Of a DNA stretch of 64,000 bases, positions 40,096 to 63,562 are shown one piece after another. Position 1 is the stretch's first letter, and each line of letters starts with the position of its first letter. The stretch is from positions 12,676,151 through 12,740,150 of the forward strand of contig OX453275.1 in the NCBI GenBank assembly GCA_949710005.1. The letters run 5' to 3'. The notes beneath the pieces are model-generated. The model was not told the origin of the DNA and did no database searches. It saw nothing but the letters and a program-made list of their open reading frames with translations. The translations under genes were made by a program, and so were the position numbers. The stretch comes from Ricordea florida. Lineage: Eukaryota > Cnidaria > Anthozoa > Corallimorpharia > Ricordeidae.

Positions 40096-40102
40096 AGTTA
40101 TT
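40096..40102. repeat. Left 7-bp target site duplication
   Basis: AGTTATT, repeated exactly at 63556-63562, directly outside the CAACAC/GTGTTG tips of the large transposon. Confidence 0.9.
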
Positions 40103-40172
40103 CAACACACTATCCCCATAAGAATAATGAATAGCATAAATTGCAAAAGAGGCTTGAAATTATGGATATCAT
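40103..40172 (+). repeat. Left terminal inverted repeat
   Basis: Begins CAACACACTATCCCCATAAG and ends TGGATATCAT; 67 of 70 positions match the inverse of 63486-63555. Confidence 0.92.
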
Positions 40173-40288
40173 AATATAACGAGGACCAGAAGGACCGCTG
40201 TTCAGTTGGAAAATGGAGCGAAGTCTCAATGGAGTAATTTTACGGTTTGGTCGACGCGGAGGAACGAGGGTCTTTTTTTTTCGTCATT

Positions 40289-40742
40289 ATGAACGATCAG
40301 GAAATCTCTGGTAAGAATATCAATGTTTGTATCCCATTGTCTTAAATTGTTCTTTATAATAGCATTAATTCCGAAATGCTTGGATGAACTGCACAATATA
40401 TACCCGTCCACTTATTTGCATCTCATTGAATAAGAATAGTGCCTCATGAAGCATTACGAACGGTGCACATTTATCTCTTTCAAATAAGCTTACATTATGC
40501 AGTTATCTATATGACCGCATGTTATTCAGTTCAGGATAACCATGATTTCTACCTGCAAATGTCAAAAGGCTTATTATGTAAGGTACGTGAGTGTACTGGC
40601 TGTTGCCGCTCGATGAACTGTGAGGCGATAGTTCCATGTACAGCCTGAATTATACGCGGCATTTTTGTGTGTTATATATGGGTTATTGACCAAGCGTGAG
40701 GTCAAGATGGCTGGATATTGGCTAAGTTCTTTTTTTTGCGTG

Positions 40743-40775
<33 letters not shown>

Positions 40776-43700
40776 CACGCAAAAAAAGAACAAGGCCAAT
40801 ATCCAGCCATCTTGACCGAACAAGCTTGGTCAATAAAGGATTTATTGGATGAATTTTCCTTGCGGGACAAAGCCCTTATCCCGAGCGGGCAACTTAGCTC
40901 CATATTGCCCGCTCGGGTAGCCAATCACAGCGCGAGATTCGGTTCATCTTGCCCGCTCACGGAGCTAGTCATATAATAAGACGATTTATTTAGCGCCATG
41001 GTTTGCAGGGGTGTTACAGACTATACCTTTACGTGTTTTACAGAAAGGGAAATATTCATTTACCAACTTGTGGGCCATTTTTTACCTACTTATGAATCAC
41101 TTTGGTTCGGGTTTTTTTCAATGTTTAGGCATCACACGTAGAAAAATCCCACCCCGTTTTAGAGTTTTTGAGATCAAAGTGACCACGACCCTTTTCACGG
41201 ACTGGAACAGTTTTCATGTTGTCAGTGTGTGTTTGATTTATGAATCTAGTGAAACCAAGTGAATGCAAGGCTGTTACAATGAGATTAATATTCTCTATGT
41301 CCCACTATTTCCAGTGCAAGGTCAACAACTTATGTAATAATTGTATACTTTTGCCCATATATTATCTTATTAGATGTTTTGGTGTGTAGTATCGCTGTTT
41401 CGGGAGTGTTTTACGGGGAAATACACCACTCATAAAATTCATGCAAGGCTACATCTGGTTACGGAGTGGCCTTTTTTTCTATATCCTAGCGAGTATATCA
41501 TTGACGTCTTAGTGAGTATATCAATGACGTCATAGTGAGTATATCAATGACGTCATAGTGAGTGAAGGAGCCAAATATCTTTGGTATTTGATTGATTCTT
41601 CTTCAGAAAATGTTTGCAATCTTCAGCAAAGTCAAAAAATGTTTGGAAACATTTGGAATGACACAGACAATTTCCAAAAATCTTTGAAAATCTCCGGAAA
41701 GTAATTTTCTGAATTCTTCTAATTTGTGTTGTCTATATAATGAAATGAACATTACACTTCGAGTTGAAGATATGAATTTTATTTTCTTGTGTTAAAAACA
41801 ATATTTACCACTCAAAAATAACATTCATATCTTTGTGCCACTGTGTAATATCCTTTATAATATTTTACACCAACACGCCTCAAGAACCATACCATTTGGG
41901 AGGCACATGTGTATATAGCTTATGTAGGGGAGGGGGGTGAAATGTATTTATTCACTGAGTGAGAGAGTCAAATGAAAAAAAAATTGGTCATGGCAGATGG
42001 GCAAAGTGCAGTGAGGTCTGTGTGCCTTAAGTGCCTTGCCTTGTCATTTGGCATTTCTTCACCCTACAATTTTGCTTGTTTACAGTCAACAGTTAAACTT
42101 TTTTGGACATCTCACATTGCAAATCCAGCTGAAAGCAACAACTTTGTCCCTTAAGTCCTTTCCAAACAGCGCATGATAGTCAATGACAGTTCAGAACTTA
42201 CAAAATCAGCAATCATGTGTATATAGCTTAATGTGTGCATGGTCAAAGGGACTGTTAAAAGCACTCTAAGTTTGCGATAGCTCACGATAGTCGATGATAG
42301 CACATGATAGTTGGTGGTCAAATGAGAGTGTAAGTGAATTTCAGCTATCATCATCATTAGTATCATCATCACTATCATTACCATTTTACTAAGGCTTTAG
42401 ATTTAATGGTTTCCAGGCACAAATACTAAATATGGTCTAACTTTTTTAATATTTTATAATTTGATCTTGGTAATAATGAAACGTCTTATCTTACAAGCTC
42501 ACAACTAAGTATAGGCACAAGTCTTTCCCCTCTACTCATTGTGTTGATTTCATCTTTTCATTTCAAAATTAATTATCTAGATGTCAGACAGGAGAGCCAG
42601 GTTGAGATTTCGGAGGTGGACGAGCCCAATTTTGAACCTATCTCAAGAGGAAGAAAGGTAATTTTTCACCAAGTGATCTGCCAAATTGTCATTTTACATT
42701 TTTTGTAGTTTTTATAATACATAATGCAACATGAGCGAGAGATTGTTTTATTATTTGAAGGTATCCTTTGTATCTCTGTATCCCTATGGTCTGGAGCTGT
42801 AGTGCTTTAAAGGAACTGTATTTAATTAACATGGATACTTGTCATGTGATGTTTGTGTGAAGTAAGATGTGATGGTTAGAAAAATATTTTGCTTGTTTGC
42901 AGAGATGCAACAGCTGCAGCAAGGTTTGCCCGGTTGCCTGCAAGAAATGCAGGCACTGTGGCGGGGATTTTAAAGTGAAGGAGTTTGACTGGGAGAGCAT
43001 TGACAAGATGGGACAAACAAACCCCACCCAGCAAAGACAATATCTGGAGAAAAGAGTAAGTAATAACACCTTAAACACTTGTGTATAAGCCGCACCTTTT
43101 TGCTCAAATTGTAGCCTCAAAATTTGGGGTGCAGCTTATCTATGAGGGTGCAATAATCTCCTAACTAAAGGTCACCTAAATGTTTATAAGAGATAAGCTG
43201 AATACCTGTCATTCTTTGTTGTTTCTAATTTGCTTTTTTGCAATTTGTTGGCTAGTAAACAAGCTTTATTTGCCTTCAGTTTCAAATCCTGGATCTTGTC
43301 ATCCAGTAGTTCCTTTCAAATGACTGATTTCACTTTATCTTGCACAAACTAAAACCAAGAATGTGTCTCTCTTTCTCCACAAAGCTGTTTAGAATATTAA
43401 TTCTGCCGCCAATGAGTATTTATCGGTTCTCCATATGCGAGAAAATAATATTATCACGATATTCAGAAGATCTCATGAGGCATATAGGACCAAACATTTT
43501 GTTGCTTTTTGTCACTTTTACTGCAAATTTATCCATGGAGTTTTTGATTAAGTCTTTCCCCAATGGATGGCTCTAAAATATCTCAAAAAACTTGGGTGGG
43601 GAAAGCCATTTTTCCCATTTTTCCTCTTTGAGTGAGTTTCTTCCAAAGGCTATTAAGCCTATTAGTTCTTTTAAGCCTATTAGTACTATTCGACCTATTT

Positions 43701-46700
43701 GGTCTATTTTAAGGTGTTTAAAAGTATTTTGAATTTATTTGATGTTAGCTCTCAAAGGGGTGGTGGACTCAATTTTGCTACCCTTTTGCCTCCATGTTTT
43801 GTCCCGATCTGTCTAGACGAACCTGTCTCAAAATGCCTGGTCACGTGGCTAGTGTTCCATGTATGAATTTCTTGTTTGAACTTCATTCACAACACAAAAA
43901 CATTCAGAGCTGAGGACATAATTATTTTCTTGATTATAATTCACACTTAACATGAAGTAGGGACTATCATATTACTTGTGCTTTTACTTTCTATTTTTTT
44001 TTTTTTCACAAAATTGAGTTGCAAAGTTGGAGATGCAGTTAATCTATACACACCTGTTTACAGTAAAATTAAACTGCTAACTAGTAAGCAAATATGTGTA
44101 AATAAATAATTTATGTATTAGGTAAAATAACATAAAACTAAACAAATAGAAAAAAGTAAGTTACACAAACAAAAGTGAAGCAAATAATAAATAAAATAGG
44201 AATTTGCCTTTGCATTTCCTCAGAATTGCTCTTCATCCACGGTCTCTCTGCGTTTTTCTTTTAAGAGGGGTTACTTTCTGAATTTGCAGTAGAATTATAT
44301 TCAGCTAATGGTTGTAAAACACTCATTTAAATGAGTAAAATTTGTGATCCTTGCAGTTTTGCTATCAACTTAGGCACATTGGCTTGGTAGCTCAAATGGC
44401 TAGGGTTCGATTCCTGTGTCAAACAAAAATTTCACTCGTACATGTTATAAATGTTATTCTGGGAAATCATAACGGTGACCTCATACCTATACAGCTGTAA
44501 CCTTGAATACTTATTAATAATAAATTCTGCGGGGGTACCGTATTTATTAGTTACAAGCAATTAAAAAATTGGCTAGTCTCAGAAGTTCTAATTCACAGCT
44601 ATGTAACTCTTGCTTTGAGGAATTCTTGATTACATGGTGATTGAAGGGCAATGCCTATTAGTGCAGGCCCCCACTGTAACATAACTGCCAAACTGTTACA
44701 CATTACATGAGGGATACCAAGACACATGGCACTCCTTTGTTAACAATTTATTTATTTTTAATGTCTTATTGTTTGTAGGCAAATATACTGTGGCGAAAGC
44801 ATGGATGGGATGTGGTGGTTTTTTATTACCACAAACATGCAAATGGTGATACAGTGATGACATTTGGCACACCAGGCATCGGCAAAGCTTTTGTTGGTGC
44901 CAACAAGAAGAGCATGTCAAAAGCAGGAAACATGGCCCTTAAAGTCTTTGATGGGTTTATAACAGGTACATATCTTCCAGTTATCACAATCCCAGTAGTG
45001 CATTTTAAAGTTGTCTGTTGCCTTGCCTTACATAGGTGATGATGATGATGATGATGATGATGATAGATGATGATGATGATGATAGATGATGATGATGATG
45101 ATGATGATAATGATGATGATGATGATGTTTGCACATGCCAACACATACATCCTTTATTCAGAGGGACCTCTGAAATTGTTGTCATTATAGAATGTCAAGA
45201 TTGGTTGTCTGAGGGATATTAAGTGTACAGGAATTATTGCTTACGTTAACAATATGAAAGAGAATATTTTGTTTCTCTTCAAACTAAAATTCTGTGCCAA
45301 CCGTAATCATTAATGCTAACCCTAATAAGGTATATTAGAAGTAAAAATTTACATGTTCATACAAACATGTTCACAAGTAGTTTGATCCTCATACCATTAA
45401 GCTCTCTGGTAGTAAACTTATTGATTGATCATATCCTCACAAAAAGACAAGAAAGGAGGTAGAGTGGGAGGGCTAAATCGATGGAAGGATTTTTCTTGAT
45501 GTTTCTTAATTACATGCTATGTTAGCCATATAATGCTGTTAAGGTGATTCCTTAGAAATAAAAGTTGACAAACGATTTTTTTAAAACTTTGTCTAATTGG
45601 TCTCAACCATGTGTTGTTTCGAATAGTACAATAAAAAACATAGGTCACCATACTCGCAAAATAGATATGATGGATTAAAGCTACCCCATTTTTTTTTATT
45701 TTATCACTTTACTGCTACCAATTACGCATGTCCTTATTTTATCAGTTCACATTGCATTTTGCGGTAGCTGAAATAGATGGTTTAAAATATGTACTTAAGA
45801 AAGGTGATAGATTGAAAGGTTAGAGCATACGAAATAATGTGATGTGTGATTTTATGGCAAAGGCACACAACTTCAGGTGGCATCGACTCAAAATCTTCCG
45901 CACGTCGATGATCTTAATTTCACAACTTTGCACCTACAAATAACGAATTTGGACATGTTTTTCTCGATAACTTTTTTTCCTGATGAAGAATTTTTTTAAA
46001 ACTCGTTTAACTCAAAGAAAATGATTAGCTCATCAGAATTATGCAGAAAAAAGATAGGTCATCGTGTTTGTTAAGTAGAAACTGACCCTTTATTTCTCTG
46101 GCAAGCTTAATCTCGTAGAGAAACCGTTAATGTGCGCGCGCTAATGACGCCAGAAATCGTGCGCAGTAAGGATGCGCAATGCAATACTGAGGAATCACCT
46201 TAAGGCACTGCTAGGTCAACATAATCATGACATATGCTATTTTGACATACATCAATGTAGCCACCAACCGCAGTAATAATAAGCAGTGATAGCACTATTG
46301 ACAAAGCACTCAGTAGCAACTAGGGTGATGGGCTTATATACAGGCCGAGGATCAGAGAGTGGATTAATGCGCATGCAGCAACTATCCCTGGTCAATAAAT
46401 GAGCCTGATCGAAATTCATTCAACTGACGAGAAAACAGTTAATTCATTCTTTGCACGAACTCTGATGATTTTGGCAGCCTATGTTTTCTAGTGTTGTAGT
46501 CGATGTAGGGGAATCATAACTTACCGGTAATTGTGTTATGTTTCTTTGAATAATAGAGCAACAACGATTGGCAGATGACAATTCATCACAATCGAAAGCA
46601 TCCAGTTCAACTGAGGCTACTGGCACTGTATCGTCACCAGCAACAGCACCATTAGCACCACCAGCACCACCACCAGCAGCAACGCCAGCAGCACCACGGG

Positions 46701-47677
46701 CAGCGACACCAACAGCACCACCTGCAGCTACACCAACAGCACCAGCAGCAACACCACTGACAGCTACACCAACAGCACCAGCAGCAGCATCACTGACAGC
46801 TACACCAGCAGCAACACCAACAGCACCACGGGCAGCGACACCAACAGCACCAGCAGCAGCACCACTGACAGCTACATCAACAGCACCAGCAGCAGCACCA
46901 CTGACAGCTACATCAATAGCACCAGTAGCAATGCCAGCAGCACCACCAGCAGCAACATCAGTAGCAGCACCACTACCAGCAGCACCATGTGATGGTTCAC
47001 CATATAACCCTTCCCCATCTTTCCCATGTACACATACTAACAACCCACATGCACAATCTAACCTTTCTGTGCCATCTAACCCTTTTACACAATCTAACCT
47101 GTTTACACAAGCTTACCCTTCCTCGTCATCTAACCCGGCAACACTATCTAAACCTTCTGCACCATCTAACCCTTTCGCGCCATCTACACAAGATACGCTT
47201 TCCACATCAGCTAATTCTTCTACACAATCTAACTTTGATGCACAAAGTAAACATATACATTCCTCTGATGTGTCTGAACACCTGTATACAATACCAAAAC
47301 GCTCACGTTCATTTGTTTCTCCTGCTAACACTTCATCACAAGATCCCATTCCACTAGATTGTCCAGCCACTCTGTCTAACATGGTCCCATCTCAAGAGAA
47401 ACTCGTGGCTTATGTTGTAGATAGAGTGGTCAATGCCATTGGTGTTCCTCAGCCACAAAGGACAGTTCTACACGGGAACCCCATCCCAAAGGGTTCTATC
47501 TGCATGCTGGTCCATTATGCAGTGGATAATGTCCCAGTTCCAATTGTGCTGGGGGATGCCGATGAAAATGCAAATTTAAAAGCTGGACTTTTTTTTGCTT
47601 TTCCAATTCACAATCTATTTAACTACAGTTATAATCCCATCTCTAACACGGCGAGTGTATCTCCCTTTTCCGTGTAA
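40289..47677 (+). CDS. KDZ-element accessory protein, 519 aa, cysteine-cluster plus Ala/Pro/Thr-rich region
   Basis: Five exons: 40289-40310, 42581-42657, 42903-43055, 44779-44965, 46557-47677. All junctions are GT/AG and all phases agree, giving one open frame of 1560 nt. The start ATG (40289, A at -3) is 117 bp inside the left TIR. Residues 35-53 form a tight cluster (CNSCSKVCPVACKKCRHCG), probably zinc-binding. Residues 85-147 (RKHGWDVVVFYYHKHANGD ... NMALKVFDGF) look folded. Residues about 170-290 are low-complexity A/P/T repeats encoded by GCA/CCA/ACA codons, followed by a Ser/Asn/Pro-rich stretch and a conserved-looking C-terminus (KLVAYVVDRVVNAIGV, VPVPIVLGDADENANLKAG). I recognise no family. 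Position suggests a transposition helper, DNA-binding or regulatory role (inference). Exon 1 is the least certain part. Confidence 0.65.
40681..40840. repeat. Fold-back MITE in intron 1 of the accessory gene
   Basis: Arms of about 70 bp: TTATTGACCAAGC ... CAAGATGGCTGGATATTGGC pairs with GGCCAATATCCAGCCATCTTG ... GCTTGGTCAATAA; the tip arms are CGTGTTTATGGACC / GGTCCATAAACACG. The following 140 bp carry GCCCGCTCGGG-type repeats. No coding capacity. Confidence 0.75.
41404..41880. repeat. Fold-back repeat, family A, copy 2
   Basis: Shares with 1138-1440 the leader GGAAATACACCACTCATAAAA-like sequence and the terminal hairpin (CATTACAC ... GAAGATATGAATTTTATTTTC and its inverse CATTCATATCTT ... 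GTGTAAT). It lies in intron 1 of the accessory gene and carries the 23-bp repeats listed separately. Confidence 0.6.
41489..41557 (+). repeat. Three 23-bp repeats with CRE-like palindromes
   Basis: Units start at 41489, 41512 and 41535 (GTGAGTATATCAATGACGTC + ATA). The last two contain the perfect CREB/ATF site TGACGTCA; the first has one change. Confidence 0.75.
44386..44425 (+). repeat. Truncated tRNA-like SINE head
   Basis: GGCTTGGTAGCTCAAATGGC (A box) is joined directly to GGGTTCGATTCCTG (B box). The anticodon arm is deleted, so it is not a tRNA gene. Confidence 0.5.
45037..45126 (+). repeat. GAT microsatellite
   Basis: About 30 GAT units with a few interruptions, in intron 4 of the accessory gene. 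Confidence 0.9.
45543..46199. mobile_element. 657-bp MITE with TTAA target duplication
   Basis: The ends are GGTGATTCCTTAG and (inverse) GGTGATTCCTCAG, flanked by TTAA (45539-45542 and 46200-46203) as in piggyBac- or Kolobok-type elements. No transposase. It is nested in intron 4 of the accessory gene, just upstream of exon 5. Confidence 0.8.
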
Positions 47678-47944
47678 CTGTTGCAGACTTGCAGTTTATT
47701 TTTTAAAGGTCAAATTGTACATTTGGGATTCAAGACAAAGTGTTATAGATTCAAAAGTATATTTTGCACGTTTGCATTTGCTATAAACAAAAATTTTATC
47801 AAAGTACCATCTCTCTTTGTTAGAGCTGGCCGGTATAGTATAACTATAACAAATAGTGATGAGGTAAAGTCGCACTCGAGCCACAGCTGGAGCTTAACCC
47901 AGTTTCCGTATATATATTATATATACCTCCATCCTAGCATCAGC

Positions 47945-47990
47945 ACTGCACTGATGAGGCCCAGAAGGCCGAAACAGTACTGTCTGCAGT
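47945..47990 (+). ncRNA. Hammerhead ribozyme 1
   Basis: Stem I ACTGCA pairs with TGCAGT (47985-47990). The core is CTGATGAG, stem II GGCC-CAGAA-GGCC, then GAAA, and short stem III ACAG-TA-CTGT. Predicted cleavage after C 47984 (GTC|T). All conserved core bases are present. Confidence 0.9.
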
Positions 47991-48172
47991 TAGATATAGC
48001 TCTTTGGCTTTCATGCCCAAATTGAGCACTCCACTGGGATGAGTCATTGCCGCTAGCATTGCGCATGCTCGCTAGTTCTCTAGTTTGAGCACTCTGGCAT
48101 GACTTAAATGATACCACAAGTGTGATTTCGTTTGAGGTGGCTATATAGCCATACCTCCATCCTAGCATCAGC

Positions 48173-48218
48173 ACTGCACTGATGAGGCCCAGAAGGCCGA
48201 AACAGTACTGTCTGCAGT
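48173..48218 (+). ncRNA. Hammerhead ribozyme 2
   Basis: Same sequence as the first copy, 228 bp downstream; predicted cleavage after C 48212. Cleavage at two neighbouring sites would release a 228-nt monomer. Confidence 0.9.
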
Positions 48219-48400
48219 TAGATATAACTCTTTGGCTTTCATGCCCAAATTGAGCACTCTACTGGGATGAGTCATTGCCGCTAGCATTGCGCATGCTCGC
48301 TAGTTCTCTAGTTTGAGCACTCTAGCATGACTTTAATGATACCACAAGTGTGATTTCGTTTGAGGTGGCTATATAGCCATACCTCCATCTTAGCATCAGC

Positions 48401-48446
48401 ACTGCACTGATGAGGCCCAGAAGGCCGAAACAGTACTGTCTGCAGT
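48401..48446 (+). ncRNA. Hammerhead ribozyme 3
   Basis: Third copy, core intact; predicted cleavage after C 48440. The unit ends just after it in an AT repeat. Confidence 0.9.
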
Positions 48447-48599
48447 TAGTTATATATATATATATATATAAAAAACGGTTATAAAATGCCTCAAGCCAAC
48501 AAAGAATGCCACTGCGTCAGGAGGATCAATGCAGATTCACAGTCCAAGCCTCACCACAAAAATGAATTTAAAAACGTTAGATAAAGCAAGGACGGACAA

Positions 48600-48675
48600 C
48601 TTCTGACGATAAAAAAGTTAAAAAGTTAAAAATTTAATAGAAAAAACGTTTCGGTCTTAGACCTTCGTCAGTTAC
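48600..48675 (-). ncRNA. Second hammerhead-like motif, minus strand
   Basis: The minus strand reads CTGACGA, stem II AGGTC-TAA-GACC, GAAAC, a long T-rich loop, then CGTC (GTC at 48605-48607). Core bases fit a hammerhead with a 3-bp stem III. No good stem I was found, so activity is doubtful. (AT)n runs flank it to about 48738. Confidence 0.5.
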
Positions 48676-48694
48676 CTATATATATATATATAGT

Positions 48695-48727
<33 letters not shown>

Positions 48728-49932
48728 TATATATATATTTGTTTTCTTGTATTTAAAGACTATTTTTCGATTTTTTCAATATCATGAATGGAATGAGAAG
48801 GTGATGGGGAAGATGAATATTACAACAGAGCGTCATAGTGATTTAAGTTTCCCCAATTTATAGTTAATAATGTTTAATCAACAATAGGAACAGGTTTTCA
48901 CTTTTATTGAAATACATTGTTTTGGTAACGATCCAAGTAGCTTTTAGCATAATACAAAATATTAAATAGAATTTCAGTATGTAAAAGGTATCCTTCACAT
49001 GTTTCCTAAACGTTGGACTTTTTTTGTAACTAGATTGCGAGCAGTTGTGATCTGTTAAATAACGACACTTCCTTTCTTTGTACTACCCAATAACTGCGTT
49101 TTTTTACTACGAAGTAGTGGTACAGCTTGATAATAACACTAAAACTATTGAACTTTCATGCCATACATTTCTTCTTTCTACAAGATCAAGTTGTTTTGAA
49201 GTTTTGTATGCAAAATATGTTGCTTATGGGAAAATGTAATCAATGTGATTATTTATTTTATTTATTTTTTTATTTCACCACACATTATTTACAAAGAAAA
49301 AATAATAAATCTAATTACGTTACAATAATACGGAGATTGAAAAGACACTAAGGAAAGAGAAAATGTCTAATACGTACAAATAGCGGAGAAAATAAAGTTG
49401 ACTTTGTAGTTAAATAAGATTGTGGCGAGGAAATCTCGAAGAAGCTTTGAGGTTTATTTGTGAGCTCGAGATTTCCTCCCGTAGAAATTGAAATTTAATA
49501 TAATTGTTGCATAGATAGGCTATGTTGAAGTAGAAATATAAGGAAGAAAAGAAAAATGTGAAGGAAATAAATATGGAAACTCTGATTTAAACTCGTTTTG
49601 CCTGTCTCTTAGAAAAGATTTCATGAGTCGTTTGCAGGTAGAAGCACCTGTTGCTGCTTTAATGTGATGAGTAGTAAATAAAAGTGGGTATAATACTTTA
49701 ATAAAAGATATTCACGTAAACATTAGTCTGTTTTAAATATCCATCCCAAGAATGGACCACTCTGTGAAATAAGCCAAGTTATGATCCAGTTTATTCAAAG
49801 TTGTACACCAAATAAATAAGAAAGCAAGGTTTCCAGATACTGTTTCATCAGATGGAGTCTTTTTGTTTATGTTGTTTTTTTACGGGAAGTGAGTAAATTT
49901 TGCTACCAATAAATTGCACGTAGCAGATTTCA

Positions 49933-50900
49933 GTTGGGTCATCCAGGTCTGTTGGGTCATCCAAGTCAGTTAGGTCATTCAAGTCAGTAGGATCATTGAA
50001 GTCAGTAGGAACATCTAAGTCAGTTGGGTCATCCAAGTCGGTTGGATCATCCAAGTCAGTTGGATCATCCCAGTCAGTTGGGTCATCCAAGTCAGTTTGG
50101 TCTTCCCAGTCAGTTGGGTCATTCAAGTCAGTTGGATCATTGAAGTCAGTAGGATCATCCAAGTCAATTGGGCCATTGAAGTCATTTTGGTCGTCCAAGT
50201 CAGTTGCGTCATCCAAGTCAGTTGGATCGTGCAAGTCAGTTGGGTCATTCAAGTCAATTGGATCATCCAAATCAGTAGGATCACCCAAGTCTGCTGGGTC
50301 ATCCAAGACAGCTGGGGCGTCCAAGTCAGTTGGTTCATCAAAGTCAGTTGAATCACCAAGTCAGTTGTGCCATTCAAGTCTTATCGGGTCATCTCACTCA
50401 GTTGGATCATTCAAGGCAGTTGAGTCATTTAAGTCAGGTGGGTCATCTTGTTCAGTCGGGTCATCCAAGTATCTTGGGTTATCCAAGTCAGTTGAGCGAT
50501 TCAAGTCAGTTAATGCAAGTCATCTGGATCACTGAAGTAATTTGGGTAATCTAAGTCAGCTGGGTCGCACGAGTTAATTGGGTCATACAAGTCATCTCCG
50601 TCATACAAGTCAGTTGGGTCACCCAATTCAGTTGTGTCATTCTGGTCATCTCACTTAGTAGAGTCATTTGAGTCATCATATTGGTTAGTCAGGTGATTCC
50701 AATCATGGGTCATCTAAACCAATTGGGTCATTCAAATCAGTTGGGTCATCCAATCCAATCCGAATCAGTTGGATCGCCTGAGTCAGTTGGATTATCTGAG
50801 TCGGTTCAGTCATCTGAATCAGCTCGATCGCCTGAGTCAGTTGGGTCATCTAAGTTAGGTGGATCATCTGAGTCAGTTGGGTTGTGGTCTTGTGACCTTT
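49933..50900. repeat. 18-bp minisatellite
   Basis: More than 40 imperfect copies of a unit like AAGTCAGTTGGGTCATCC. Because 18 is a multiple of 3 and most frames lack stops, both strands show long repetitive frames (KSVGSS on plus, DPTDLD on minus). These are treated as by-products, not genes. The right third is more diverged. Confidence 0.85.
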
Positions 50901-52600
50901 GGTTTTGACCCTCGCCCTTGAAACTTGGTGACCGTATTTTGCCGTCGACTGAACTTAGGTCAGGAGGTAAAAAGGTCAACGGTCAAAACTTAAGGTCGTT
51001 ACACATATTTTTCCTCCTTCCGACCTTACGTTTTGACCTTTAACCGTGTCGCAAAAGTGTGTTTGAATCTTTTACGCTATTAACCTTGTGTCAAAGTTTC
51101 AAAGGCAGCAGTTAAAACCTAAGGTCAAAAGAGCCAAAAATACGTTTTGTCTGGGTAGATTACCACCTGTGACCCTTACTTTAAACCTGTGACCTTGAAA
51201 CTTGGTGATCGTATTGTCCTCGACGAGTGAACTTAGGCCTGGAGGTAAATAGGTCAGAGGTCAAAAGCAAAGGTCATTGCGCATATTTTTCTTTCTCATG
51301 ACCTTTGGTTGCAACCTTTCACATTGTCGCTAAAGTATGTTAGGCTTCTTTATGCTGTTAAGACCCCGTCAAATTTTCATGGTCATTGGTTAAAATCTAA
51401 GGTCAGGAGAGTCAAAAGTAAGTTTTTTTATGGGAAAAATAAAAGACGTTTTGAGTCCTTGTGACCTTTGCTTTTGACCGTTGACCTTGAAACTTGGTGA
51501 CCGAATAGTCGTTCACGTGTTAAGTTAGGTCAGCGGGGTAGAAAGGTCAAAGGTCTAAAGCCTTGGACGTGGCACATTTTTTCTTTCTTATGACCTTTAG
51601 TTTTGACCTTTGACCTTGTTACTAAAGTATGTTAAACTTCTTTATGCTGGTAAGATCTCGTCTAATTTTCATGGTCATTGATTAAAATCCAAGGTCAGGA
51701 GAGTCAAAAGTAATTTTTTCTGGGACAGAATGCCTCTTCACAAATTGGAAGTTGGATCCTTGTCATCAGAGAGGATGAGGAGAAACAACGGGCCAGATTA
51801 GCACTTGTGACCTTTGCTTTTAACCTGTCACCTCGAAACTTGGTGACCGCATAGTCCATGACGGGTTGACTTAGGTCAGGCGGTGAAAAGGTCAAAGGTC
51901 AAAAGCTAAGGTGGGGGCGCTTATTTTTCTATTTTCTGACCGTTAGTTATGACCTTTGACCTTTTAGCTAAAGTATATACGGCTTCTTTACGTAGTTAAT
52001 ATCTCTTCCAATTTCCATGGTCAGTGACAAAAATCCCAGGCCAGGAGAGTCAAAAGTATTTTTTTATGAGGAAAAAATACGACATTTTAGTCCTTGTGAC
52101 CTTTGTTTTTGACAGTTCACCTTGAAACTTGGTGACCGGACATGAAATAAAAGCAAGGCTGGTATGGCGTATAAGAATTAATGCGACAGAGACGTGTATG
52201 AAAGAGACCAAACCGAGAGGCTCGGTTTGGTCTCTATCATGTCGACTCTGTCGCAGTATCAGCCTTGTTGTTATTTCATGTCTTTCATTGTTTACATCCA
52301 GCAGCATTTTCTCCACGGTCCTTTGCTTTTTGTGAACATGTCCTTAGAGAGGATGGTGAGAAAGAACGGGTCAGATTAGCATTTGTGACCTTTGATTTCG
52401 ACCTGTGACCTTGAAACTTGGTGATCATCTTGTCCTCAATGAGTGAAGCAAAGGTTGTGGCGCATATTTTTCTTCTCTTTACCTTTTGTTTTGACCCTTC
52501 ACCTTGTCGCAAAAGAATGTTAGGATCGTCTTTGCCTTTAACATTGTGTCCAAGTTGCGAGATCAGCCGTTCAAACTTAAGGTCAGAAGAGTAAAAAAAT
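50885..52600 (+). repeat. ~300-bp tandem array rich in nuclear-receptor half-sites
   Basis: Six diverged units start near 50890, 51169, 51458, 51803, 52094 and 52382 with TTGTGACCTTTG ... CCTTGAAACTTGGTGA. Each holds TGACCT/AGGTCA half-sites. Perfect DR1 arrangements include AGGTCAAAGGTCA near 51890 and TGACCTTTGACCT near 51606. No open frame of note. Confidence 0.8.
52138..52283. mobile_element. Palindromic MITE nested in the array
   Basis: GACATGAAATAA at the left pairs with TTATTTCATGTC at the right. Inner arms are GCGACAGAG/CTCTGTCGC and AGAGACCAAACCGAG/CTCGGTTTGGTCTCT. It interrupts the fifth array unit. Confidence 0.75.
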
Positions 52601-53705
52601 GTGTGTTGTTGATCTGGGTTTATAGAATGCCTCTTCACCACCTATTTTACCTTCATTTGGGATAAAAGTGGGCTTCTGGAGAGTTACGTTATTTGAAATT
52701 AGACTGAAATGGTATTTTCTTGTCATATTTCCAAAATCGACGGTTCCGTAAAATTATCCCACTTTTCTTAAATTTAGACTGTCTGTTCCATGAAATTTCA
52801 ATTAAGCTCAGTAAGGATAACTTGAAGTAATTTTCAAGAGCAAAATCACCCACACGTTATCAGGTCATCGGTAATGCGAGTCATTTTGCTCGTCTTAGAA
52901 TGTGTCGAATAGATGAATTTTTATACAAGAGGTACATGCGTTGATAGATCTGAAGAGTTAACAGTCGGGTCTAACAAATTCTTTTAACGTAGAGAAGACG
53001 TCAAAATATGGCAAGAACAAAGAAGTACGCCAATGAAACTCAGGCGAGTAGCGTGATTGATTCTTGCCGCATGCGGTCCACACGGTCCAGTAAAAACAAA
53101 AAGAATGAATTTCTCTTAAACCTTAAAGGCAGAGAGATTATCCAAAGTGAGCTTCATACCAAGTGCTTTGACAAACGTTGTAAACTGTAAAGAACTTCTT
53201 AAAATAAAGAAGTTCTAAATTAACATACTGAATCCCAAAGAAGTTTTGAAACAGCTTTCTGAAAGTAACCTTTATTCCACCAGCAAACAACTACTTCGAA
53301 AAAATCGACCGCATGATTTTGTTCATTGTTGACTATTCCTGCATTTTATCAGAGACAAACGTCTGGAAAAATTTCATCAGTTTTGTCTCACAACAAACAT
53401 TCTAGCTTATTAGCTCATAAAAGGACCTATATCCCCATTGATCTGTCCCAAGAACGTTTGTTTGTTTTTGTCTTTGACGAAGCAAATTTTCTGAAAAATA
53501 ACTTCGTCCTGCCACAGTGACGTCATTCGTGCCTCTGTACTATAATCACCCACTTCAGAAGACCAATCAGAAGCGAGTTTTTTACTCTTCATTGCACGGA
53601 AAGTCTTGAATACCTGGAAAGCTGAATAGACTATTACAAATCCTTACAGAGTACCTAGTACCTTACGGTATTGTGTTTAAGGCGGACGAGCAGCCCCCAC
53701 CCTCC

Positions 53706-53716
53706 CCCCCCCCCCA
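53706..53716 (+). repeat. Poly-C tract
   Basis: C run in the otherwise featureless interval 52650-54320 of the KDZ element; a small open frame at 53008-53190 has no support. Confidence 0.6.
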
Positions 53717-54323
53717 CCCCAATAGGGTAAGTGCAATGGCTGTCGGATATAACATCTAATCCCATCCATGGCGGAGAAGTGCAATGCCAGAGGGACGGGT
53801 CCACACATAAACAGGGGGACACCGGTCAACTTCGCTGGGAAATCGAATTCCACCCCTTAAAAAAATCTCCAAATATTGTGTCATAAAGGCATACAAAACG
53901 GAAACAACAGACCACCGCACAGCAGACCAACAAAGGACACCAAGCGCAAGCGATCTTACGAAAGGGATACAAACAAAAACACTATGAATAGTGCCTACAA
54001 TGTATACAACCGTCGAAGGCGACAAAGAAAGCCAAAATCAACACATAAACAAAAACAATAACACTACAAGTGTTGACGAGCAAAGAAAGAAACAACCCAG
54101 TTGCTTCCCATGAAAGTCAAACACCACACTTAACAAAGCTGCATGGAGTCAGATGATTGTCGATGGGATAGAGCATGCCAGCCCGGAAGCTTTGGTTGAT
54201 TGGCATCACCAACAATGTACGTCGCCCGGGAGTAGGCTGTGCAAGAAAACCAAGGGACGTGTTGGAAGTGAATTTTAGAACAGGAGTGGAACTTGCTTGG
54301 AACTTCCTTGCACAGGTTTCCAC

Positions 54324-55392
54324 TTAAAAGGTAATAAAGGAAAGATTGGCGTAGGTGTCATTCTGCAAACCTAGCACGGTCTGGCTGGCATGCACAAATT
54401 GGTCTAAGCTGTCACGCTGTCCCAATAACACTTCGGCACCATGGAGGCCATGTTGATGAGTATCCACCAAGGCAATAGAGCATTTCCCGATGGGCATAAA
54501 GAGGACGGTCTTCTCGTTGGCTATTAGCAAGGCAGCATGACCGTGGTTACCCGTACACAGCTTTCGCAACTGGAACAACAGAGTTGTGGGCGCATGTTGA
54601 TCAAAAACGCGTACCGGCAAAGGGAGGTCAACAGAAGCACTAACACTTTGCTCAACAATGGTAGCAGCCTCTGCTGCTGACAGGAAACGCTGTGGCAAGC
54701 TTTGGCGGCAACTGTCGTAGAACCGGTTACCAATTCTGATCGCAGTACACATAAGCACACCCACAGTGGAGATAGCAGACGCACTGGTTGCAGGTCAAGG
54801 CGCTGATGGTGTACTTCATGAGCAAAGATGAGCGCAATGACACTGCAAGCATAGCTACCATTACGGCCGTTAAGTGTCGATTGACTAATCTCTAGAGGAA
54901 ATTTCCATGCCATCAGGTTGCTATGCGGCAGATTTTCCCCAGTGACTTCAAGATCCTCCCCTGTGGTGGGCTGGTCGATGTCTACACGTTCGTCATCAGA
55001 CATTGCACCAGTATCAACATCGTCCTCGACAGCATCATCGTTTTCCTCTTCGTTGTCACCATCTTGGATTTCAAGGGAATCCTCAAAGCTGCTGCCTGAC
55101 AGAGCGGTTTTGAATGAGGTCGTTGCACTGACCAGTTGAGCTTTACAGAAAGCGATCCCCTTTTTGACGCATGCCAACTTGCCTTCAATTACGACTGCGT
55201 CCTGGGACTCAGTTGTATACCTGGCCATCTCCACCTAAACGTAAAAGAGTGAAAAGATATTTATTAGCCAAAATGATTTCCAATTAGAGACAAGTTTTAA
55301 AAGGTTTTGCAATTCTTAGCATACATTTTCTGACTGCACAGGCTCTTCACCAGTCTCGAGCGGCATCTCAACGTCCAATTCACAGGGAGGAT
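54324..55392 (-). pseudogene. Cysteine-peptidase-like exon block of the KDZ element, frameshifted
   Basis: Two exons: 55325-55392 (DPPCELDVEMPLETGEEP) and 54324-55234, joined in phase 0. After an acidic linker (EDDVDTGAMSDDERVDID) a globular domain starts NGRNGSYACSVIALIFAHE, with a candidate nucleophile Cys (codon 54845-54847). It continues in the -1/+1 frame with IRIGNRFYDSC and ends with IALVDTHQHGLHGAEVL (candidate Asp and His, codons at 54456-54464). The C...D-x-H order resembles papain-fold deubiquitinase-like peptidases (OTU or herpesvirus-tegument C76 type); this is inference. The two halves are in different frames; the shift lies near 54750-54765. The first exon's acceptor is in phase with transposase exon 14, so it could be an alternative C-terminus replacing exon 15. 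No separate start codon is convincing. Confidence 0.55.
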
Positions 55393-55440
55393 CTTCAAAA
55401 AATGAAGAAAAAAAAAACAGAAACAGTTGAAAATATACAT

Positions 55441-55446
55441 TTTATT
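55441..55446 (-). terminator. Polyadenylation signal of the transposase gene
   Basis: AATAAA on the minus strand, 55 bp after the transposase stop codon and before the acceptor of the peptidase-like exon. Confidence 0.6.
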
Positions 55447-55500
55447 TGAAGACAAGGCGACTCAACAAGAATGGAAAACATTGAATTCATTTGATTCAAA

Positions 55501-58500
55501 CTAACTATCGAGTCTGTCCTTCAACTCATCTGCAATCCTCTGAAGCTGGGGCATAGCAACCTCCATGTAGAATTTTATGAAGTGAGCCATCTCCATTTTG
55601 ATCAGGGCAACTTCTTCATCCCATCGCTTTGTCATTTCAAACTTTTCAACGATCAATCTCTTGTAACGTACTGGTGTGTCTACAGGAACATTAAGAATTG
55701 AACAAAGAGAGAAAGAGAGAGGTTTAGCACCCTATTTAAGTCAAAAAGGTTGTATTGCTAAGAGAGCTATAACAAGCAATAAGCCTAATTGGTGATTGGT
55801 CAGGTAAGTTCTTCAAAAAACAAGCTGTTTCGGCCTATTTGGGCCTCGTCAGCACGGCGCAGCAAGATTACCCAGTCTGAATTAGCAAATCAGTAACCAA
55901 TCTAACAGCCTGAGCAATTAGCAGCCGTGGACAGCAATCAGTATAGTTACCTACATGTATGCCTACCTTGTACCAATGATACATAATTCACCTGCATTAT
56001 TTCCCCAAGGGAAGTTTCCATTCATGACGTCTGCAACTATACATGGGTTAGGGTTAGCATCTTGGATACCTGCTGTCCCTTCATTGTACTGCTGCATCCG
56101 AGATGTTAGCTTTGCCTTGTCAGCAGATATTTTTGTGCGCAGTTTGGATCGTTGTTTTGATGACTCTGTGAAAACAACAAGAGGGAAATTCTCAAGAAAA
56201 AATATGTTAGCATATAACAGAATATGTTTTTTAATCCTAACCCTGAGCCCTTATTAGAAAAAAAGTCATGCACACACCTGCCAATTTGCTCATGGAACGA
56301 GTAGTCTGTTCAATAGATGACACCAACATTTCAATTTCGTCTTGAAGCCGCACGCTGCTGGTAGAACCATGCAAGGCTTCTATTTCTAACAAACAGCAAT
56401 TTTGACGTGTCAGTACACTAGCGATGGGTACTGCAATACAACATGGCCGTACCTATTTTTGGAATGTTTACTGTGCCCTCCAAAAAAAAGCAGAATACGA
56501 AATTCAAAATGACTGCCAACGGTTGGAGTTTATGCCACCATAAATCATTGCAACAGAAACTTAAGAAACAAAAGCGGCAGGTTCAAAAGGTAGCTTTTGT
56601 GCACAGTGATTGGTGGGTTTTGATCCAGTTTGTTTGATTGATCGCAATGAACAATGGAACCATACGTGGTGACTTGAATTTCAGCTTCAGCTTTTCAGCA
56701 GCTGCAGTAAACAAACTAGGAAAAATTTTCCTTGCCTTATAATTTGCACATCGAATACTTGTTAATTATTACAACTATAACAGATCTCATGAAATAATTT
56801 TAAAATGTAGGGAATAATAAATTAAAATGGAAATGCATGATTACAACAAACCATGCACAATATCAATTTTACCTTGTGCATGACAAACAACAATGTTCTT
56901 CCACTCGTCTGCCTTAAATCGAACTGTTGGTACATTATATGCAACAAGAACTTCAGTGAATTCTTTCTCTGATTCACTTTGCATCTTAACAGCCTAGCAC
57001 ACCAAAGATAAGAAGAATAGATGAGGTTATTCTGAAGCTAACAACCTATAGTATTTTCATATATTGACCTCTACGATTATATCACAAATACTGCAATCTG
57101 AATTGTACTCACTATTGATTCTGTAATAGACAGCCAGTATCAGAAAGGTGAACAACATGTACAGTTTAACCTTTAATGTAACAATGCAATGGAATAAAGA
57201 ATTGTTTAAGAAATTACATTATTGACTCTTGATTTCTATGTGAAATAGTTGATTTGGGCTATGCCCTCAGGTTCCCTCGTCAACTCTTGCTCAGTAAAAA
57301 TCTTCAGCCCAGGACCTAAACATCAAATAACATATGTATGTGTACTGTATGTGTATTAAGAGCAGGGGGGGGGGAGCATACTCACACGAGTGTAGCGTTT
57401 TGCAAGACTCTGCACCATGCCAACAATTTTCCTCCTGTTCCATGAGAGGGCATGCTTAGTGATGAGCTCTTCTCGATCTGGAAAATTTAAATAACATTTA
57501 TTTAAGCATTTGTTTCGAATAATGTTCTTCATCAATTTGTTATTTGTATTATGTGCTGCGGTTTAATTTCTTTTAAACGAACGATTTTTTTTAAATTCCC
57601 ATTCTTACAAATTATGGTAATGATTCGGAGACAGCAGGAATTCTAAATATTACTACACTGACTTGGAACGTTTTAAATAAAAAACATATCCAAATGCTAG
57701 AAATCTGTTTTTCAGCCTGTGTGATCTTCCTTTCATGGCTAGTATATAACTTCTTTTTGAAGGTTTCCACTCACTCTCAGGAAGCATGTACTTGGTGGTG
57801 TTTCCACATCGTGACATGTGAGAGTTGATCTGTTCTACTTCTTCACCAGTGGAACAGGCACTTCCATCTTGCCATCGACCTCCCCATATAACCTGCATGA
57901 TTATAATTAGACTGATAGCCAAGTGAAAATACTGCAGAAACAGACTTACAATATTGGAATGTTTTTGCAAAACAATATACAATAATAGCTAGGGTGGTAC
58001 AGGTAGGACAATTACTATTCAAACATTTTTTTCTAAATGATATGAGTATTTGCATTAGGGTGGGGAGGGTGTACGGTGAGGCATTCTTTTGTATTGGATA
58101 AATATATGTTTACCTGGCATGTCCAATTGTGAGCCTTGGCATGCATAACGGACAAGGCAGGTTTCATGTCACTTCCATCAAGACCACCAGCCTTTCTCGC
58201 CCACTTCCAGTATTTGCAAACTATATCCTCCCAAAAAAACTTGACGCCAGCTGGTATCATTTTTTTGAGATGAATATAGTTTGCATAACCATACAATTCC
58301 CCCTGAAACATATTCACTGCCCACTGGGCCAAGCCATGCCTGCAACCTGTAAATAAAGGACTTAATTGTAAATACAGCTAGTACAGTAAAATCAGCCAGA
58401 CTTAAATTAAGGTAAAAAACAGATATTTGTTTCATTCTAGTTTGACCTGCTATCTCCAGTCCAGTTTCATCCAATTTGGCTGACTTACTGCCTTTGTTGT

Positions 58501-61500
58501 TGGCCGCCCAACAGTGGGTATCTCCACATCTATTGTCACTATCCTGTAAACAACGCAAACATGAAAACACCTGCCTTTTTACATCAGCTTTAATATACAC
58601 TGTAAGATTAATTGCACAGTATATTGAAACTGATGTTAGCAAATAAGAAATAAGATGCAATATCTTGACACTACAGCCAAACATTATGGAGGTAGAATTT
58701 ATATCAATTTTAGACCTTTGAGTCCAAGTGAAATGTATGTTAAAAAGAGAGGTATTCCCTGATTACAAAACTGTACTAAAAGCTTTGATATTATTTAACT
58801 GAAGCATGGCAGCAAGTAAAAAAGGACAATCAAGTGTGAGAAGCAACAAGATCACTACGCCATATTAAACAAAATAATGCTACACGATTTGACTAAATAT
58901 ACTGTCCAAAATACATACAACTGACAAACCTTAGATTTTGGCTGCTTTGCATAAACTGTTTTCATGTGACAGTCAACATCATTATTACTAGCAATAAACA
59001 CATCACCATAATATGATGGCCTTCTTTGACTGCAAATGATATAAGGAATAAAACAATAAATACATTTTTAAAAATGAAGAACAAAACACTTTTCTTTGTT
59101 AGACACCTATTTTGGATCATATTTAAAAGTGATCCTCTTTTATTGAAGTGTATAAAAATACCAGCAGTGCAGTTGTATGTGCACCCCTTCAACAGGTATT
59201 AAAACATAAATACAGCTGAAATATACAATTTTTGTTACAATAATATTATTATTGTAACAGTAAAATTCACAACCTACCTTCCTGATGACTGGTAACGATA
59301 CAATTTCATGTTTCCATCAACATGACAGGAATGTTGACTTATTGAACACGTTGGACACTTTAAATAATCCATGCCTTGAAGTCGACAAAGTTCATACTGG
59401 CAAAATTTCCATTCTTTAAACGAGCGACTGAATGTTGCATGATTGATTGTTGGTTCCTGCAAAACATAAACCAACAAAACAATGAAACCAATGCCACATA
59501 TGTACAGTATATACTCAGTTGCTGTGACAAGGTGTAATAACTAGTTAATAAAAGATATGTAAGGCACAAATAAATAATCAATTTTTGCATGAGAGTAGGT
59601 GTTTTTTAACAGTAAATTAAGGGAACATGCATGCATCATTTTGTTTATTCTATAAAATAAATAGAAGTGATGTACCATTCTAAAATCATCCTTGCAACAC
59701 ATACAATAAATAATGTCCAATAAAGGACAAAGGTTGGCAACTGATGAATTAGGAATAAGAAACAATAACAAGAACAACACAGAATAGAAAGCATAGTAGC
59801 TCTCATGTGCAATTACATTTAAATAAATCATTGGTCCCAAAATAATGTGCAGCGGCTGCATTGTTATCACAGCTAGGCCCATACTTTCTGTTCTGTTGTT
59901 GGTTCTTGTTCTATAAACCAATGTTGTAAAATTGTGCAACACCTGCTGCACCAGATAAAAAATTGTAATGAACTAAAGCAGTACCCTTCCTTTCATCAAA
60001 GACACATCCTCAAGTGCTCTAATGAATGATGTCTCAGATGTCCCTGGCATTCTCTTCTGGAGCGAGTCCCACAGCTGAAAAAGGCGCTGATCAAATACAT
60101 AAGTTGTGTCAGTAGGACTGCCCGGCCAATACCCTGCATGGACAACACCAGCTAGTGTCCAGGATGGAGCAATGTCATTGCACCTCTTGCAGTGGATCAC
60201 AGACTTGTTTAAATCAAACCGACCTGGAGGTACACAGAAACACAAAAGCATATCATGAGACAAAGATTACAAAAAGATAGACGTCTAAATGAGTCATCAT
60301 TCGAACTAAGAGATAACATATATAAATATATTTAAAATACATCTAATATCTAAAAACTAGACTTGTTTGTAAACTAGTTAATTCTAATTAGCATAAAACA
60401 ATAATTATTTTATTAACCATTAAATGAAATTTTCATATTCAAACAGCATGCAGAAATTTTACAACAAAAATACAGAGTTGATACCTTTTTCATTTACAAT
60501 AATTAGAGTCTCCTTGGTATTCACAGTTATTTGCTGTAATGCTCCAGGTTCGTTACACTTGGAACAGAAAGCTGGCAATTTGACAACTGGATATAGCTTG
60601 GCTTGAAGGGCAGATAAAAACAAAGAGCAAATGTAAGTATGTTGAAAAATCTATAACTTTAGGAAGCTGTTTACCACCATTTTCATTGTTTAGCAATGAT
60701 TCAAATCAAAACTCCTGTGAAATGCTTCCAAAATTCTGTCAATGAAAGAATAAGCTGGTTTCAAAGTTTGCTTATGGAAAAAACAACGCATCCATTTATG
60801 GTATTAGACATAGGCGAAATTCAATGCCAGCTTAATGTTTGATTGATAGAAATGTTGGAAACATTTACACGGAATTTTTGGCATGAATCACTGCGTAGCA
60901 ATGCAAAAACTTTATTAGCAGTTGCATCATTGACGAAAATTCAATACACAACAAAATTATATTAAAGGAAAATGTAGCAAAAACATGGCATCATGATCAC
61001 TTTGTACGGGGGAACCTGGTTGACAGTAACACTGTTGTCAAGCAATGAAAAATTGGTCATGTTCACAGGGGTAGCCATGTCAATGCATGAGGTTGCACAT
61101 TTGATCACTATATAATATCTCCTTGAAAAAGCATGCCAGCAATAGCAATCAGTGACACATACAAGCAAGAAAATGTGAATAAGCACTGCCCTAATATAAG
61201 AACAGACTTGAACAGTGTCCCAGGTAACAATTCTATAACAGGGTAAAGGAACTTTGGTGCCATTACAATTATAGGTGTTGAATAATGTTTGACTCATTCA
61301 CTACAATCTATGAAATGGTGTACTTACAGGTACTTTGCATAGTTCCATTCTTGTCAAGTGTGACAGTTGGAGGGATGGCTTGAAAATACCCATTTAAATA
61401 CCCATCTCTGTTGTGAAAAGGTAAAAACTGGTGCACCTTTTCATCACACGATGGACACATAAAACTAACTGCACACTCCGTACATCGCACTAGCACTGTC

Positions 61501-63421
61501 CCTTCCAAGCACACTTGGCAACAATCTGGAAATGGGAGTCCCTCATAGCTTAGGACAGCCTCAAATAGAAGTTTTCTTGAAGTGTCCCAGCGGGATGTTA
61601 AATTGGACATCCTGTTCTCCCAACTTCTTGGAGTTAAAGGAAGATCAAGTGAGTGCAAAAACTCATCACATTTGGCTAAAGTTGCCTCAAGATTATCATC
61701 TGCGAAAATAAAAATTATGGCTTTTGTTACCTTTAAGGGTCTCACAAAAAATAAATTATAGAGAAAACAACGGTCTGGTTAGCTTAACTGGTTAGTTTAG
61801 TTTAGTTGGCTTAAATCTATGTTCTTAAATCTTGCGCGTGCACTCAGAAAGTTGCTTTTTGCTATATAGCGCGAGTCGCTTAAAAGTAACAAATGACAGG
61901 AGTATTTCAATAATAAGCCAAAGATTATGTCAGTTAAAATTTAAAAGTATCAATAAAATTTTAATGATATGACTTAATCAGTTAAAACTGTTATTGCATG
62001 CATCTCCTCACCTCATAGTGACCTCATATTGACTCATATCATTCATTTATGATAATGTGATAATTTAATCCACTATCAGAGTATAAAATTATGCATACAA
62101 ATGTATAATGTTTGGAGCATTGAATTTAGCATGACAGCATCTGACAGGGGACATTAATGCAACAGCTGATAGAAAACAATAAATTTAGAATTCAGTCAAT
62201 CCTACCATGAATGCTTGTAGAACACTGCTGGAATTCTACCAAACCTTGTCAGATTTTACCAAAACCTCTATGTCCACGACAGGTACCAAATGAAGCACCG
62301 TGTGTTGTTTTAACAGGAATAAAAGGTAATAAACATGGATTGTGTGCCTAACTTAAGGAATACAAAATACTTACCCTCAAGATTAGAGGATGATTGTTGT
62401 TCTACCCTCACTTCATCATCTTCATCCAAATCTACATTATCTGCATTGGAGTTAAGCATACTTTTGGAATGAATGTCAATATACCAAAATCATACACGAG
62501 AACTGCAGAAGAAATGTGAGTGAAATTTGTGATCCTCCTACACTATTTTAGTTGATCACAAAGCTGTGTGGATCAAAATTTTCACATTTCCATATACACA
62601 TTAATGATTTTCATATAATTTTTATTCACATTCATTTATTCACCACCATCAGGTACGTTACAAACTCACAATGACCTATCTAGCACAAAATACTGGCTTG
62701 GTAGCTCAAGTGGCTAAACAACTGCACTGGCGGGTATTGCATGGGTACAAGGCAAATCCCGGAAAAACCAGATTTTTAAAAGGTTTTCAAATGTTTAAGT
62801 TGATAATTATAAACTGTGAGGAACACAAATTAACTTATAGCATAAATAAAGAAATAACTTTACAACTAGTATCTATGGAAACATTTGTTGAGCGACCAGC
62901 TAAATATAGCCAACATCACTCAAACAACAAAGCTAGGTAGATGTAAACTTCTAGTTCGGTCCATTCATTATAAGAAGGCCAGGCACAGCCACAAAAGGGA
63001 AAATCTCGAAAATCTCCAACACGCGATCACAGAAAAATTATCTATAATTATTGCCAAATATCGTGTGTTTAAATTAGAAGGAACATTTCCATTATTATTA
63101 TATGTCAGTTAACGAAAAAATAACCTTAATATAAGTTAACATTTTTACAATAAAATCAAATTTACCCTCAATGGCTGAACTGCTGGCGATGGCGTAACTG
63201 GTAGATGGCAAGTCGAAATTTTCTCTTTCTGGTTGCTGGAACCGAGGTTTATACGGGTATTGACTTTCGCGTTTGCCCGTAATAGGATCGCGAAAAATTA
63301 AATAACGAGACTTTTTTTTGCGTTTTTTCATTTTTTTAACAAACTCATCGGCTTCATTAAGGATTACTTCGAAAGACTGCTTGGAACTTTCAGCTCGCTT
63401 GCTCCGCTTCGCGGCCGCCAT
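55501..63421 (-). CDS. KDZ-superfamily transposase, 816 aa, 15 exons, intact
   Basis: Exons: 63166-63421, 62375-62440, 61328-61699, 60485-60601, 59985-60223, 59278-59456, 58930-59029, 58447-58543, 58114-58346, 57775-57892, 57386-57477, 56873-56993, 56278-56385, 55992-56165, 55501-55679. Every junction is GT/AG and in phase; no internal stop. ATG 63421 has A at -3 and G at +4; upstream in-frame ATGs are weaker. Residues 1-50 are basic (KRSKRAESSKQ, KKMKKRKKKSRY), a likely nuclear signal. About 185-215: cysteine cluster (CCQVCLEGTVLVRCTEC ... CPSCDEKVH) of the CxC type found in KDZ proteins. 305-330: GYWPGSPTDTTYVFD. 384-399: CPTC ... HVDGN, first Asp D397. 456-479: CWAAN, LDETG, CRHG. 516: second Asp in WEDIVCKYW. 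534-573: VMHAKAHNWTCQ and GEEVEQ with the Glu near E570. A coiled C-terminus follows. The RNase H-fold transposase would bind the TIRs and cut in the nucleus. It is convergent with the accessory gene. Confidence 0.88.
55826..55853 (-). ncRNA. Hammerhead-like motif in transposase intron 14
   Basis: The minus strand reads CTGACGA, stem II GGCC-CAAATA-GGCC, GAAACAGC. The downstream triplet is GTT and stem I is not evident, so it is probably an inactive retroelement remnant. Confidence 0.4.
62696..62765 (+). repeat. Degenerate tRNA-derived SINE head
   Basis: TTGGTAGCTCAAGTGGCTAA (A box) and GGGTACAAGGCAAATCCCG (decayed B box) in transposase intron 1. Same family as 2385-2456. Confidence 0.45.
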
Positions 63422-63485
63422 TTTCTTTTCTGGTCTCATGCAACAAAGCACCACGGGAAGATATCAGCCTTGGCCCGTTAAATTA

Positions 63486-63555
63486 ATGATATCCATAATT
63501 TCAAGCCTCTTTTGCAATTTATGCTATTCATTATTCTTATGGAGATATCGTGTTG
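63486..63555 (-). repeat. Right terminal inverted repeat
   Basis: Inverse of 40103-40172 with three mismatches; ends ATATCGTGTTG. It lies 65 bp upstream of the transposase start codon and so probably overlaps its promoter. Confidence 0.92.
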
Positions 63556-63562
63556 AGTTATT
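63556..63562. repeat. Right 7-bp target site duplication
   Basis: AGTTATT, identical to 40096-40102. Confidence 0.9.

Follow-up and report, generated by a model that had tools for sequence, protein, structure and literature searches.

The 64,000-nucleotide stretch of Ricordea florida contig OX453275.1 analysed here (positions 12,676,151 to 12,740,150 of the forward strand, hereafter the window) contains a 23,453-bp element at 40103–63555, bounded by terminal inverted repeats (TIRs) and a target-site duplication (TSD), in which a KDZ transposase gene on the minus strand and a second gene, denoted gene B, on the plus strand start near opposite TIRs and converge. With a probability of roughly four in five, we read it as a recently mobile two-gene KDZ transposon, whose CxC3–KDZ transposase can be extended by splicing into a VTD deubiquitinase-like domain, and whose gene B encodes an accessory protein. 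The initial annotation of this DNA described a KDZ transposon with its ends and transposase, but its account of the contents was incomplete, having overlooked both the convergent gene and the VTD domain.

Ends, copies and age of the element

The left TIR (40103–40172, plus strand) is 70 bp long and starts with CAACAC, while the right TIR occupies 63486–63555 on the minus strand; both were placed by inverted-repeat comparison and genome matches and, as first reported, they differ at 3 of 70 positions. The TSD was likewise correctly described as exact, AGTTATT being present at 40096–40102 and again at 63556–63562. A search of the species' own assembly (537.8 Mb, 48 contigs) returned 11 matches to the 70-bp TIR, including four head-to-head pairs, which argues that the repeat is not a product of chance. 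The paired elements measure 23,453 bp (window), 24,318 bp (C9), 28,636 bp (C3a) and 14,102 bp (C16), and three of the four pairs have exact, copy-specific 7-bp TSDs (AGTTATT, GTTCGGC and ACATGTC). A further copy, C15, is near-complete, having lost about 41 bp of its outer left end, and C3b is a decayed copy.

Kimura two-parameter (K2P) distances among five copies span 0.11–0.69%; the copy nearest to the window is C9 (0.0011), followed by C3a (0.0032) and by C15 and C16 (both 0.0064), with C15 and C16 differing from one another by 0.0017 and C3a and C16 by 0.0069, the largest value of the ten pairs. Two young subfamilies can be distinguished among the copies. This low divergence, together with the copy-specific TSDs, bears out the proposal that the element is young and recently mobile. 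The window, C9 and C3a contain segments at about 40676–40976 and 45482–45943 that C15 and C16 lack, which indicates that part of the element's size is due to later insertions. Nested inverted repeats resembling a miniature inverted-repeat transposable element were seen at 40700–40817, near the left end and inside one of the segments absent from C15 and C16.

Two convergent genes

On the minus strand, transposase exons 1–7 lie at 63421–63166, 62440–62375, 61699–61328, 60601–60485, 60223–59985, 59456–59278 and 59029–58930, exons 8–14 at 58543–58447, 58346–58114, 57892–57775, 57477–57386, 56993–56873, 56430–56278 and 56165–55992, and exon 15, in its long form, at 55506–55679, where a donor left unused leads to the stop codon at 55503–55501. 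This frame is open, as the initial annotation had it, with GT/AG introns, although in our model it encodes 831 residues and not 816, and the gene probably continues past exon 15 to a total of 17 exons: predicted exons 16 (55325–55392) and 17 (54324–55234), the latter carrying the VTD domain, follow in compatible phase, and in C9 and C3a all 17 form one 1156-residue frame with a single terminal stop. Such an intron number is ordinary and not unusual as was thought, since passages of PMC9297572 give 18 and 31 exons for Zisupton genes of Pristionchus. Compared with the three other copies that retain exon 17 (C9, C3a and C15), the window lacks one base of it near 54758; the resulting frameshift falls between the VTD cysteine and the Asp-x-His motif, so that the C-terminal domain of this copy is broken and the transposase can be called intact over its 15-exon part only. 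C15 has the same transposase exons with an 8-bp deletion in exon 1, and C16 lacks some exons.

Residues 394–606 of the transposase match Pfam KDZ (PF18758) at 106.5 bits, far above the cut-off of 26.6 (E 2.1e-30), while the cysteine cluster anticipated as CxC1 or CxC2 is in fact CxC3 (PF18804; residues 239–346, 92.0 bits against a cut-off of 26.6, E 2.8e-26). The motifs that we take to be those of the DDE triad contain D397, D516 and E570. All three are kept in the relatives L045 and L043; L046 keeps D397 and D516 (the glutamate is not covered), L047 keeps D516 and E570 (D397 is not covered) and the decayed L021 keeps D397 only. The relative L045 (C3, 20.34 Mb) also possesses the C-terminal domain and a similar candidate exon 16 with the same phases. 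Measured against L045, for which dS is near saturation, the Nei–Gojobori (NG86) dN/dS of the transposase part is 0.147, that of the KDZ core 0.064 and that of the C-terminal domain 0.106–0.124, and the element's proteins are under purifying selection.

The C-terminal domain has a papain-like fold, its top fold match being 8add, titled 'Viral tegument-like DUBs', and it resembles the ubiquitin-removing enzymes of herpesviruses. The catalytic cysteine and Asp-x-His are present as C983, D1111 and H1113 in the C9 protein, the cysteine being found in 22 of 22 aligned members and the aspartate and histidine in at least 90%. Predicted VTD domains are a large family in the R. florida genome (93 of 96 rows counted, three second pieces of split loci being left out) and are also used beyond KDZ. 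At one locus, L091 (C15:24305700–24307900, minus strand), an open reading frame (ORF) encodes a membrane protein of the SERINC type (Pfam E 7.6e-36) and runs on in the same frame into a VTD-like region (E 1.5e-9, 27% identity); this may be a host gene that captured a VTD-type domain.

Gene B has five exons spanning 40289–47677 and encodes 519 residues. Exon 1 (40289–40310) holds the start codon assigned in the gene model and is followed by exon 2 (42581–42657), by exon 3 (42903–43055) with a zinc-ribbon-like CxxC segment (Pfam UPF0547 at 17.5 bits, below the cut-off of 29), by exon 4 (44779–44965) with a conserved middle domain, and by exon 5 (46557–47677), in which Ala/Pro/Thr-rich repeats precede a conserved C-terminal beta domain (47384–47674). 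In all five copies examined the frame of the gene is open and its splice sites are conserved, while its length varies by multiples of three. Relatives found by whole-genome search consist of the same three parts, i.e. the CxxC segment, middle domain and C-terminal domain, the last being 36–46% identical to that of the window, where two rows with stops (L050 and L054) were left out of the comparison; the cysteine pairs are clear in L063, L064 and C13. Proportions of synonymous and nonsynonymous differences from these relatives are 0.74–0.90 (pS) and 0.31–0.46 (pN). Gene B matches no Pfam family above cut-off, and its C-terminal domain was modelled with a pLDDT of 90.4.

Recurrence of the gene plan and alternative explanations

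The pairing of these parts was counted among the best 54 of 243 KDZ candidates and the best 83 of 107 gene B candidates. A VTD lies downstream on the same strand at 18 of 22 distinct KDZ loci, with a spacing of 3.1–7.3 kb, except that one C7 KDZ hit lies 13.5 kb from its VTD; the two C7 hits have a single VTD and a single gene B in common. Gene B is found within 40 kb at 19 of the 22, the nearest always being convergent; the probability that some listed gene B entry falls within that distance by chance is about 0.005 per locus. A second family is represented by a 25,259-bp element on C13, with TIRs that are identical at 120 of 120 positions and start with CAACATG, flanks TCCTCGT and TCCTTGT (6 of 7 matching), a gene B CxxC segment near one end and, as a short match (E 0.023), a transposase N-terminus near the other. 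The genome contains 30 matches to this TIR; nine end pairings were inspected, two being alternatives at C7, and exact 7-bp TSDs flank five of them (C6, C2, C16 and two shorter derivatives). The C6b pairing has a 4/7 match, with AGAAGAC shared, as read by eye, if three terminal bases were lost, and both C7 pairings have no TSD (one side is masked). The two families share CAACA ends and the gene plan, which argues that gene B and VTD belong to the transposon. The second family also includes two smaller units bounded by TIRs, at C16:17167353–17169543 (2.2 kb) and C2:26368206–26376097 (7.9 kb); both have exact 7-bp TSDs and are likely non-autonomous.

Several observations weigh against the two-gene interpretation. 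Exons 16 and 17 and the whole of gene B are predicted gene models, C3a has no TSD, cysteine pairs are not clear in the gene B relatives L065 and L066, and the modelled C-terminal domain of gene B matches no solved fold clearly, so that the function of the gene is a guess. By hit identity the 22 KDZ loci make up about five families and are therefore not independent cases. Among the best-scored candidates, no KDZ is listed within 40 kb of 76 of the 93 VTD places or of 14 of the 32 gene B entries, and for three of the 22 KDZ loci (C8, C5:17.94 Mb and C3:25.30 Mb) the listed candidates include no VTD and no gene B in the vicinity. These three loci, the abundance of VTD elsewhere in this genome and the single coding sequence that Zisupton is said to have would suit a plain one-gene KDZ transposon, with VTD and gene B unrelated to it and nearby by chance or captured once. 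We regard such an element as very improbable, given that order and strand are repeated, with similar spacing, at 18–19 of the 22 loci across those families, far beyond the chance expectation for gene B, that the gene B C-terminal domains of the families retain only the 36–46% identity given above, and that both genes lie inside the TIRs of the second family.

That VTD is a separate gene, giving the element three transcription units, is unlikely but has points in its favour: C9 and L045 share a conserved methionine where the VTD exon begins, and both the window and L045 have a stop just past the exon 15 donor. Since this stop starts with the third base of the intron, short and long forms are both possible. 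Against a separate gene, L045, although diverged, has a similar exon 16 with compatible splice phases, and in C9 and L045 alike an acceptor directly precedes the methionine. L045 itself has a stop in transposase exon 6, marking it as a decayed copy, and the near-saturated dS against it also tempers its use. A dead relic whose proteins no longer function would be consistent with the exon 17 frameshift of the window, the exon 1 deletion of C15, the missing exons of C16 and the decay of C3b; this we hold to be improbable, as C9 and C3a are open throughout and copies of the young subfamily differ by only 0.11–0.32%.

For the two-gene transposon, a working scheme can be proposed in which the transposase binds the TIRs, perhaps through its cysteine cluster, and the DDE core would cut and paste the element, duplicating 7 bp of target. 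Splicing past exon 15 would add the VTD, a choice between short and long isoforms that echoes the Ulp1-bearing isoform reported for Zisupton, and the VTD may then strip the transposase complex, or its partners, of ubiquitin, protecting them from degradation. The gene B protein, with its zinc-ribbon-like N-terminus and small C-terminal beta domain, might bind DNA or the element ends and help in transposition or its regulation.

Relation to known transposons and other features of the window

MuDR, of the maize Mutator system, encodes a transposase and a second gene, convergently expressed from opposite TIRs; the R. florida element shares this plan, but it is not a Mutator member and differs in transposase superfamily and TSD length. 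Zisupton (Bohne et al. 2012) resembles it in having a multi-exon KDZ transposase with TIRs and in reportedly producing, by splicing, an isoform that ends in a cysteine-protease domain of the Ulp1 SUMO protease type, so that the two would be alike in principle in joining such a protease to a KDZ transposase. The protease here is instead VTD-like, with the cysteine preceding Asp-x-His, and the element, at about 23 kb, exceeds the roughly 11 kb that Zisupton is said to measure and has a second gene. Zisupton of fish has 8-bp TSDs according to passages of PMC12730594, whereas exact 7-bp TSDs occur in 3 of 4 pairs of the window family and 5 of 9 of the second. The same passages describe 7-bp TSDs and 5'-CA..TG-3' ends for the fungal KDZ group Kyakuja, and both features are common to the window and C13-type families. 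Kyakuja-1_LB and -2_LB, as described there, are without TIRs and carry TET/JBP, whereas the families here have TIRs of 70 bp and at least 120 bp, respectively, and no Pfam match to TET/JBP was found in the pieces scanned. Sections of PMC9741609 report VTD-bearing Helitrons and Helentrons, which are rolling-circle RepHel elements, the occurrence of both VTD and OTU domains in Helitrons, and cnidarian VTDs fused to several 'transposon-associated domains'; the likeness is that of a transposon carrying VTD, here a DDE-type KDZ element with TIRs and a TSD. KDZ, Zisupton and Kyakuja do not occur in the main text of that paper, and in the portion of PMC9926710 consulted one row is labelled 'Likely KDZ transposase'.

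A literature search that was light on subscription journals showed no KDZ element carrying a second gene or a deubiquitinase, and a term count in PMC6431247 gave no hits; on this limited search we read the two-gene, deubiquitinase-bearing KDZ transposon as a new variant. The VTD and OTU domains of Helitrons and the SUMO protease that Zisupton is said to carry together suggest that transposons have repeatedly acquired ubiquitin-type proteases. If VTD has the role in KDZ elements that has been proposed for it in Helitrons, control of transposases through ubiquitin would become a general theme open to testing, and gene B would make these animal elements two-component systems; as C9 and C3a, in the same genome, have both genes open, this prediction is testable. 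Tentatively, and with rather less than even confidence, we envisage a large two-component animal KDZ lineage in which transposition needs gene B, the fused VTD protects the complex against host control that depends on ubiquitin, and the lineage is one source of host VTDs, such as the SERINC–VTD fusion of this genome.

Between the two genes of the element lie 18-bp tandem arrays (49930–50880) and 292-bp tandem repeats (51168–51719). Tandem repeats of 228 bp at 47923–48454 (plus strand), a retrozyme-like nested repeat, contain type I hammerhead-like cores that score below the Rfam gathering score; they are of the same size class as the 220–240-bp retrozyme repeats of A. millepora given in passages of PMC7229834, and the cnidarian-like host initially proposed fits with this. 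Minimal hammerhead-like motifs (CTGACGA...GAAAC) occur on the minus strand in a transposase intron at 55819–55852, below the Rfam cut-off, and, as read by eye, at about 48630–48675. Outside the element, the window includes a 46-bp tandem repeat in six perfect copies (23530–23806), an ORF with a BED zinc finger (37975–38331, minus strand, E 2.1e-8), perhaps a hAT-like relic, and a tRNA gene (2385–2456, minus strand, Rfam 53.9 bits).
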